Positions 30,169 to 33,865 of a stretch of 39,024 nucleotides of DNA are shown here, piece after piece (positions within the stretch are counted from its first letter, which is position 1; the number at the start of each line of letters is the position of its first letter). The notes under the pieces were generated by a model. It saw only the letters and a program-made list of their open reading frames with translations. It was not told where the DNA came from and made no database searches. The position numbers and the translations under genes were made by a program. Origin of the DNA: Thiohalobacter sp. (GTDB taxonomy: Bacteria > Pseudomonadota > Gammaproteobacteria > Thiohalobacterales > Thiohalobacteraceae); assembly GCA_026993645.1 (NCBI GenBank), contig JALWSQ010000252.1, forward strand, positions 1-39,024, given 5' to 3'.

Positions 30169-31038
<870 letters not shown>

Positions 31039-31070
31039 CTCGTATCCCTCCCTAAGCCGATCGGCGACTG

Positions 31071-31097
31071 TTAGCACTCTCGACCTTTGAGTGCCAA
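31071..31097. promoter_or_regulatory. Putative CIRCE element (HrcA operator) in the rpoH leader
   Basis: TTAGCACTC-TCGACCTTT-GAGTGCCAA; one mismatch to TTAGCACTC-N9-GAGTGCTAA. Confidence 0.85.
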
Positions 31098-31113
31098 TCG
31101 TCGCCGGAGTTCC
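31086..31113 (-). promoter_or_regulatory. Putative sigmaE-type promoter for rpoH
   Basis: On the minus strand GGAACTC-N16-TCAAA, close to the sigmaE consensus GGAACTT-N~16-TCAAA; -10 lies inside the CIRCE. Confidence 0.5.
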
Positions 31114-31209
31114 CCTCTGTTGTCAAGCCTAGACGCTGCCAGGGGTTTGTCGAGCAGGAATGGGGGCGGAAGTGACCGGGATCAAGGCCCCACGGCCGAA
31201 ATCGGGCAG

Positions 31210-32178
31210 TCAGGGCTCGATGGCGCCCAGGTGACGGCCCACCGCCAGCCAGGAGCCGGCCAGGCCCAGCAGGATGCCCAGGCCCAGCACGGCCAGGGCG
31301 GCCTCCGGCGTCAGGCCCTGGAGGCTGAAATCGGACAGGTACAGGCCCGCCAGGCGCCGGACCGGGACGTTCAGGGCGGCGATGGCCAGGGCCAGCAGCA
31401 GCCAGGCCAGCAGGGCGCCGCCCAGGCCGTACCAGAGCCCGCTGTAGAGGAAGGGCCGGCGCACGAAGCCGTCGGTGGCGCCGATCATCTTGCTGACCAT
31501 GATCTCCTCGCGCCGGTTCTCGATGTCCAGCCGGATGGTGTTGCCCACCACGATCAGCACCGTCAGCGCCAGCAGGGTCCCGACGATCAGGGTGCCCTGG
31601 TGGGCCAGCGCCATGATGCCCTGGAACCGGCGCACCCAGTCCAGGTCCAGGCGCACCTGGGCGACCTCCGGCAGCGCCTCCAGGCGGCGGGCCAGTCCGG
31701 CCATGCCGGTGGGGGTCGCGGCCACCGCCGTCGGCCGTACCAGGATCACGTCGGGCAGGGGGTTCTCGCCCAGGGTGGCCTGGATGTCGCCCAGGCCGGC
31801 ACGTTGTTCCAGTTCCTGCAGGGCGGTGGCGCGGGACAGGAAGCGGGTGGCCGCGATACCGGCGTCCTGCCGCAGCCGTCCCGCCAGGCCGCGGGCGCGG
31901 ACGTCGCTCACCTCGGTGCGCAGGAACAGGGACAGGCTGGGCTGGCCGTTCCAGTCACCGCTCAGGCGTTCCAGGTTGGAGACCACCAGGTACAGCCCCG
32001 TGGGCAGGGCCAGGGCGATGCCGATGGCGGCCACGGTCATCAGGCTGGCCACGGGGGTGCGGCTCAGGCGGCCAAGGCTGGCCACCAGCACCTGGGCCCG
32101 GTGCAGCAGCCAGACCGCCAGCGGGTGGTCGTCCCGCCGGGGCCGTGCCCGCCGCTCCGGGTGCCCTGGCCGGCTCAT
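31210..32178 (-). CDS. ftsX: Cell division ABC transporter permease FtsX
   Basis: NTIRLDIENRREEIMVSKMIGATDGFVRRPFLYSGLWYGLGGAL; ATGA overlap with ftsE; internal start in the track ORF. Confidence 0.95.
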   Translation of the reverse strand: MSRPGHPERRARPRRDDHPLAVWLLHRAQVLVASLGRLSRTPVASLMTVAAIGIALALPTGLYLVVSNLERLSGDWNGQPSLSLFLRTEVSDVRARGLAGRLRQDAGIAATRFLSRATALQELEQRAGLGDIQATLGENPLPDVILVRPTAVAATPTGMAGLARRLEALPEVAQVRLDLDWVRRFQGIMALAHQGTLIVGTLLALTVLIVVGNTIRLDIENRREEIMVSKMIGATDGFVRRPFLYSGLWYGLGGALLAWLLLALAIAALNVPVRRLAGLYLSDFSLQGLTPEAALAVLGLGILLGLAGSWLAVGRHLGAIEP

Positions 32179-32849
32179 GGCGTCGCGGCCGCCGCCGGGG
32201 CCAGGAGCCGGCCCTGCCGCAGCTGGAGTTCCGGCAGGCCCAGGCGGCGGATGAGGTCGAGGTCGTGGGTGGCCACCAGCACCGTGGTGCCCACCCGGTT
32301 GAACTGGCGGAACAGGTGCATGATCTCCCGCGACAGCTCCGGGTCCAGGTTGCCGGTGGGCTCGTCCGCCAGCAGCAGGGTCGGTCGGTTGACCACGGCG
32401 CGGGCGATGCCGACCCGCTGCTGCTCGCCGCCGGACAGGGTCACCGGGTAGGCGCGTTCGCGCTCGAGCAGACCCACCTTGTCCAGCGCCGCCCGCACCC
32501 GGCGGCCGATCTCGCGGCGGCCGGCGCCGGCGATGACCAGCGGCAGGGCGACGTTGTCGAATACGGTGCGGTCCTCCAGCAGGTGGGGGTTCTGGAACAC
32601 GATGCCGATCTGGCGCCGCAGGTAGGGGGTGGCGCCGCGGCTCATGCGGTCCAGGTTGCGCCCGGCCAGCACCACCTGGCCGCGGGTGGGCCGTTCCAGG
32701 CGCGCGATCAGGCGCAACAGGGTGCTCTTGCCGGCGCCGGAGTGGCCGGTGAGGAAGGTCATCTGGCCACGGGGGATGCGGAAATTGACGTCGCGCAGGG
32801 CCTCGTGACCACCGGGGTAGCGCTTGGAAACCTGGATGAACTGGATCAT
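32175..32849 (-). CDS. ftsE: Cell division ATP-binding protein FtsE
   Basis: LTGHSGAGKSTLLRLI, TLSGGEQQRVGIARAVVNRPTLLLADEPTGNLDP. Confidence 0.97.
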   Translation of the reverse strand: MIQFIQVSKRYPGGHEALRDVNFRIPRGQMTFLTGHSGAGKSTLLRLIARLERPTRGQVVLAGRNLDRMSRGATPYLRRQIGIVFQNPHLLEDRTVFDNVALPLVIAGAGRREIGRRVRAALDKVGLLERERAYPVTLSGGEQQRVGIARAVVNRPTLLLADEPTGNLDPELSREIMHLFRQFNRVGTTVLVATHDLDLIRRLGLPELQLRQGRLLAPAAAATP

Positions 32850-33865
32850 GAGGCGCCGGCTTCGGCCTCCTCCGCCGATGGCGCCGGTGCGAACAGGGCG
32901 GCCACGAAGTCCTCGGCATCGAACAGCCGCAGATCCTCGATGGCCTCGCCGACACCGATGAAGCGGATGGGGATCCCCAGGCGCTGGGCGATGGCGAAGA
33001 TGATGCCCCCCTTGGCGGTCCCATCAAGCTTGGTCAGGACGATGCCGGTGACGCCGATGGCCTGGTGGAACTGGAGTGCCTGGTTGAGGGCGTTCTGGCC
33101 GGTGCCGGCATCCAGCACCAGCATGACCTCGTGCGGGGCCTCCGGGTCCTGCTTGCGCAACACCCGCTGGATCTTCTTGAGCTCGTCCATCAGGCCGGCC
33201 TGGGTATGCAGGCGGCCGGCGGTGTCGGCGATGAGCACGTCCATGCCCCGGGCCCGGGCCGCGGCCAGGGCGTCGTAGACCACGCTGGCGGCGTCGGCGC
33301 CCTGGTGCTGGGCGATCACCGGGATACCGTTGCGCTCGCCCCAGACCTGGAGTTGCTCCACCGCGGCGGCGCGAAAGGTGTCGCCGGCGGCCAGCATGAC
33401 CTTGAGCCCCTGATCGGTCAGGCGGCGGGCCAGCTTGCCGATGGTGGTGGTCTTGCCGGCACCGTTGATGCCGGCCATCAGGATCACGAAGGGGCGCGGC
33501 GCCGGCGGGATCTCCAGCGGCACCGCCACCGGTCGCAGGATGTCGGCCATGTCCTCCTGCAGCGCCGCCAGCAGGGCCTGGGCGTCGTCCAGCTGGTGTC
33601 GTGCCACCCGCCGGCCCAGGTTCTGCACGATGCGCTGGGTGGCCTCGACCCCGAGATCGGCCAGCAGCAGCTGGGTCTCGATGTCCTCCAACAGGGCATC
33701 GTCGATCCGGCGACGGCCGCGCAGCAGGCCGGTGATGCCATCGGCCAGGTTGCGCCGGGTGCGGGCCAGGCCTGCCCGCAGCCGCGCGAACAGGCCGACG
33801 CGGGCCGGCTTCCCGTCGTCGGCCGGGCCGTCGGGGTCCTGCCTGTCGCGTCGGAAACCAAACAT
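32846..33865 (-). CDS. ftsY: Signal recognition particle receptor FtsY
   Basis: MAGINGAGKTTTIGKLARRL, AAGDTFRAAAVEQLQVW, DTAGRLHTQAGLMDELKKI, TKLDGTAKGG. Confidence 0.97.
   Translation of the reverse strand: MFGFRRDRQDPDGPADDGKPARVGLFARLRAGLARTRRNLADGITGLLRGRRRIDDALLEDIETQLLLADLGVEATQRIVQNLGRRVARHQLDDAQALLAALQEDMADILRPVAVPLEIPPAPRPFVILMAGINGAGKTTTIGKLARRLTDQGLKVMLAAGDTFRAAAVEQLQVWGERNGIPVIAQHQGADAASVVYDALAAARARGMDVLIADTAGRLHTQAGLMDELKKIQRVLRKQDPEAPHEVMLVLDAGTGQNALNQALQFHQAIGVTGIVLTKLDGTAKGGIIFAIAQRLGIPIRFIGVGEAIEDLRLFDAEDFVAALFAPAPSAEEAEAGAS

Follow-up and report, generated by a model that had tools for sequence, protein, structure and literature searches.

We analyzed a stretch of 39,024 nt from a Thiohalobacter sp. 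genome (the window), in which rpoH lies downstream of ftsX on the same strand, in the usual gene order ftsY-ftsE-ftsX-rpoH. The leader that separates ftsX from rpoH is about 170 bp long and contains a predicted HrcA operator of the CIRCE type as well as a sigmaE-type promoter (Table 1).

Table 1. Coordinates of the genes and sequence elements at the rpoH locus of the window.
Feature	Position	Strand	Evidence or remark
rpoH (sigma32), 289 aa	30169..31038	-	TIGR02392 415 bits (cut-off 323); NF005143 434 bits
rpoH start codon ATG	31038-31036	-	
rpoH ribosome-binding site GGGAGGG	31046..31052	-	Sequence
CIRCE, predicted HrcA operator	31071..31097	-	rpoH strand TTGGCACTCAAAGGTCGAGAGTGCTAA; 1 mismatch to consensus, kept in relatives
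SigmaE-type -10 element TCAAA	31086..31090	-	TCNNA in 94/104 in-register sites (see text)
SigmaE-type -35 element GGAACTC	31107..31113	-	Register -16 to CIRCE start, conserved
ftsX	31210..32178	-	TIGR00439 345 bits
ftsE	32175..32849	-	TIGR02673 293 bits
ftsY	32846..33865	-	TIGR00064 354 bits

The original prediction had placed a CIRCE with one mismatch at positions 31071-31097, and a pattern search of the window returned exactly these coordinates. The segment reads TTAGCACTCTCGACCTTTGAGTGCCAA and presents a single mismatch relative to TTAGCACTC-N9-GAGTGCTAA, with a spacer of 9 bp. When up to three mismatches were allowed, it was the sole match in the window, relative to an expectation of 0 in the shuffled window. 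The element had also been described as lying about 33 bp before rpoH: its position upstream of the gene holds, and the measured distance to the ATG is 32 bp.

SigmaE control of rpoH is textbook knowledge. On the rpoH strand, the leader of the window reads GGAACTC-CGGCGACGATTGGCAC-TCAAA with a 16-nt spacer, which agrees with the consensus of sigmaE promoters (GGAACTT as -35 element, 15-17 bp, TCNNA as -10 element). The claim that the -10 element of this promoter falls inside the CIRCE was confirmed: the left arm of the CIRCE, TTGGCACTC, ends in TC, and because these are the first two bases of TCAAA, the -10 element and the operator have bases in common. The fifth base of the -10 element, for its part, falls in the nine-base spacer of the CIRCE and is not part of either operator-defining arm. 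We searched positions 30980-31320 for a sigma70 promoter and found none, and this type of promoter was rejected for the rpoH leader of the window.

The genome was also searched for hrcA and for other copies of CIRCE, both of which were found. Allowing up to three mismatches, the whole 2.38 Mb assembly contains exactly three CIRCEs, located before groES-groEL, hrcA and rpoH, and the reversed pattern yielded 0 matches. The hrcA gene is split over two contigs (C197 and C134) whose ends share an exact overlap of 127 bp; once joined, these contigs encode an intact HrcA of 352 aa (TIGR00331 matches), followed by grpE, dnaK and dnaJ. The CIRCEs of groES and hrcA lie behind or over sequences that, read by eye, are sigma70-like (TTGACT-N16-TATTAT and TTGACA-N18-CATTAT), whereas the CIRCE of rpoH is placed on a sigmaE-like promoter. 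As judged from its genes and operators, this genome possesses a complete HrcA circuit.

We further analyzed the distribution of the rpoH CIRCE using a named set of 80 diverse rpoH loci from GTDB genomes. A CIRCE was called when it was found shortly before rpoH with at most two mismatches, and the Xanthomonadaceae form GCAGTC-N9-GACTGC was counted. The motif was present at 39 of the 80 loci (40 when adding a degenerate Xanthomonas site, L033), among both beta- and gamma-proteobacteria, and no CIRCE was found before rpoH in the enterics, vibrios and pseudomonads of this set. With one locus excluded because its upstream side was truncated, 38 loci possess both hrcA and the rpoH CIRCE, 34 possess neither, five possess hrcA only and two the CIRCE only (P about 1e-14; Fisher test; here and below, P-values overstate independence and certainty because the sampled genomes share ancestry). 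Both of the loci with a CIRCE and without hrcA come from metagenome bins. In these genomes, the rpoH CIRCE appears tightly associated with the presence of hrcA. Closer to the window, the repeat proved to be conserved in related rpoH leaders, including those of three further genera in the window's family (L176, L177 and L178), where the composite presents 0-1 core mismatches. The repeat itself, an intact hrcA, the sister CIRCEs and a conserved position were all found, and they assign the rpoH CIRCE to the class of predicted HrcA operators.

Several rpoH operators present sequence variation. Among Xanthomonadaceae/Lysobacteraceae (L033, L046 and L063), the operator GCAGTC-N9-GACTGC, degenerate in L033, is found in the same register behind GGAACTT or GGAACCT, which suggests that the specificity of HrcA may have changed in this lineage. 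Asymmetric operators, GCACTC-N9-GACTGC, were observed at rpoH in two genomes of the window's own family (L176 in G202 and L178 in G414). Pseudoalteromonas luteoviolacea (L055) possesses a perfect rpoH CIRCE and no hrcA other than a divergent one (117 bits, under the family cut-off). A bin labelled Verrucomicrobia (L070) presents a proteobacterial-type rpoH with a composite leader and is probably mislabelled. Finally, the right arm of most rpoH CIRCEs runs on into TGCTAAAAT or TGCTAATAT, an extended sigma70-like -10 element with TTAGCA or TTGGCA 18 bp upstream. The window itself has TGCTAACAG after the right arm, and the extended -10 element is absent.

The spacing between the -35 element and the CIRCE was analyzed with the pattern GGAAC-N{0,30}-GCACTC-N9-GAGTGC across 369 genomes of Gammaproteobacteria (GTDB class). 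This search yielded 145 matches, and the reversed control yielded 0. The gap was 14 in 84 matches, 15 in 15 and 13 in five; another 13 matches had a gap of 29-30 and the remaining 28 were spread over all other gaps at about one per gap (the gap tallies, like the family tally below, were transcribed by hand from the search listings). A gap of 14 means that 16 bp separate GGAACTT from the TC in the CIRCE arm. A total of 104 of the 145 matches were in register, and such counts are lower bounds because the exact search for GGAAC misses the forms TGAAC and GAAAC, which do occur (L177, L181-L185). As determined from rpoH coordinates and sequences, 101 of these 104 matches immediately precede rpoH and come from 101 genomes, which represent 61 families; only three were found at other sites, and at least two of these adjoin hrcA. 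The same 369 genomes contain about 675 CIRCEs with at most two mismatches, yet the in-register matches are nearly all at rpoH, which indicates that the register is specific to rpoH rather than common to CIRCEs.

The composition of the -10 element follows the same division. Its fifth base is A at 94 of the 104 in-register sites vs 6 of the 41 other sites (P about 2e-18) and, in the named set, at 23 of 26 vs 1 of 13 sites (P about 1e-6), with the same reservation about shared ancestry for both values. The named set was chosen without regard to the -35 element, and a GGAACTT-like sequence (at least 5/7) was found within 1 bp of the register at 26 of its 39 CIRCE loci; at other offsets, the number of loci reaching this score averaged 1.1 with a maximum of 4. 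Most of the matches with a gap of 29-30 (11 of 13) are also located at rpoH. In this class (L090, L109, L172, L175 and others), the whole sigmaE promoter lies just ahead of the CIRCE, a few bases away from it and without base sharing, which represents a second design on the same principle.

We considered whether GGAACTT could be part of the HrcA operator and rejected this reading, since the motif precedes TCNNA in rpoH leaders devoid of CIRCE and, in this register, is nearly absent at CIRCEs that are not at rpoH. The sequence GGAACTT-N15-17-TCNNA (at least 9/10) was found in 28 of the 40 CIRCE-less rpoH leaders, relative to 0.65 expected by shuffling; because these leaders keep a sigmaE-like promoter, GGAACTT is a promoter element. 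The promoter therefore stands independently of the operator, and the CIRCE was either laid over it in the lineages with hrcA or the promoter was uncovered after the loss of hrcA. The coupling of promoter and CIRCE is not universal, because Burkholderiales and some others present an rpoH CIRCE without an in-register sigmaE -35 element (L068, L069, L077, L081, L084, L086 and L087, mostly Burkholderiales). Transcription of rpoH at those loci probably relies on another promoter.

In the assembly of the window, canonical RpoE was not found (the best ECF match reaches 69 bits, against a cut-off of 236 bits), and neither were rseA and rseB. These absences would fit a scenario in which HrcA represses rpoH while sigma70 or another sigma factor reads the promoter, sigmaE having been lost here and GGAACTC-N16-TCAAA persisting as a relic. 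The extended sigma70-like -10 element into which the CIRCE right arm extends in many relatives points in the same direction. However, TGCTAACAG occupies this place in the window, in whose leader no sigma70 promoter was found, and canonical RpoE is present in 9 of the 11 genomes of the family Thiohalobacteraceae. The relative G202 presents the order nadB, rpoE, rseA, rseB, rseC-like, degP-like, lepA, lepB and rnc-like (gene names partly assigned by reading translations), and the entire nadB-rpoE-rseA-rseB-lepA block, syntenic in that genome, appears to be missing from the window's assembly (G000; 95%-complete, 301 contigs): its sole nadB-like match is partial and below the cut-off, and its best LepA match, 38% identical, is a paralogue. 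Almost all members of this group are known to carry lepA, and its loss would be odd. Because nadB, rseAB and lepA are gone as well, the absence of rpoE is most simply explained by a missing contig, which is the likely cause; a true loss of rpoE was considered but is disfavored, since nadB, rseA, rseB and lepA are equally missing. We therefore regard the relic scenario as unlikely.

Another explanation is that HrcA does bind the CIRCE but that the overlap with the sigmaE promoter is incidental in this strain and creates no regulatory gate, either because sigmaE polymerase outcompetes HrcA or because an upstream promoter dominates. It is generally known that the rpoH gene of E. coli has several promoters, and read-through from ftsX across the leader is possible in the window. 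An incidental overlap is nevertheless difficult to reconcile with an exact register that 61 families share and that is confined to the CIRCEs of rpoH, with only the three exceptions mentioned above, and we find this explanation quite improbable. That the inverted repeat arose by chance and has no HrcA function would be very surprising: in this strain the element is only a sequence match, with one mismatch to the consensus, but none was expected in the shuffled window, the reversed pattern was absent from the genome and the repeat occupies the same place in relatives, and chance was rejected on these grounds.

These results support the original interpretation of the rpoH promoter. We consider it likely that the element is a composite switch, in which the left half of the CIRCE incorporates the -10 element of a sigmaE promoter and HrcA blocks sigmaE-RNA polymerase, forming a two-input gate. 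The operator, hrcA, its regulon, the promoter register and their conservation were observed in the sequences, and from these we infer the binding of HrcA, the steric block, the gating by GroEL and the use of sigmaE in this strain. When there is no folding stress in the cytoplasm, HrcA, kept active by free GroEL, would occupy the CIRCE and cover the -10 element together with the position where transcription should start (about 31079), thereby excluding sigmaE-RNA polymerase. Envelope stress would supply sigmaE, and unfolded proteins would titrate GroEL and cause HrcA to leave the CIRCE, such that strong rpoH transcription from the sigmaE promoter would require both envelope stress and a shortage of GroEL. 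In proteobacteria generally, sigma32 raises GroEL. For this reason HrcA would also complete a negative feedback circuit acting on rpoH, in which the GroEL produced under sigma32 would restore repression. Several steps have precedents: HrcA is stimulated by GroE in B. subtilis, Chlamydia and H. pylori, its binding to CIRCE is lost in B. subtilis and others once unfolded proteins occupy GroE, and core promoter elements can be overlapped by sites for HrcA (PMC6032397).

Parts of this arrangement resemble known systems. The original prediction mentioned that HrcA sites had previously been predicted before rpoH in some proteobacteria, and this is the case for Geobacter sulfurreducens, where a CIRCE is predicted 51 bp before rpoH and the regulon is equally small and likewise comprises groESL, hrcA-grpE-dnaK-dnaJ and rpoH (PMC545781, which cites Permina and Gelfand 2003 for HrcA/CIRCE). 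Unlike the window, G. sulfurreducens is a delta-proteobacterium with sigma32-type promoters, and the available text of PMC545781 describes neither a sigmaE promoter nor a base-sharing overlap for it. The rpoH gene of E. coli is a known RpoE-dependent target (PMC5493296), with a promoter similar to that of the window (GGAACTT-like -35, spacer of about 16 bp, TCNNA -10), but E. coli possesses neither hrcA nor CIRCE, and thus no HrcA site on this promoter. At groES and hrcA of H. pylori, HrcA footprints overlap core promoter elements and the start site, and GroE stimulates binding, a situation comparable to the one predicted for the window; in contrast, H. pylori HrcA targets chaperone operons rather than a gene for a sigma factor that is itself transcribed by another alternative sigma factor (PMC6032397). 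We found no description of the shared-base sigmaE/CIRCE composite, or of its breadth, in the open-access literature searched.

It is conceivable, although we propose it only tentatively, that the base-sharing composite represents the ancestral control of rpoH in Gammaproteobacteria (together with Betaproteobacteria), and that the much-studied rpoH promoters of E. coli, Vibrio and Pseudomonas are remnants left after the loss of hrcA. If so, the textbook separation between HrcA and sigma32 circuits would be a product of which model organisms were chosen. Whatever its ancestry, the proposed switch would bring the GroEL/HrcA sensor and sigmaE, the envelope sensor, together on one promoter of the cytoplasmic heat-shock sigma factor. 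E. coli lacks both the two-input gate and the feedback loop in transcription (from sigma32 through GroEL and HrcA back to rpoH) that would result. The composite gives a simple prediction that can be tested in dozens of families and suggests an origin for the arrangement of E. coli. Two alarm systems that are usually described apart appear to be wired to one rpoH switch in many Gammaproteobacteria.
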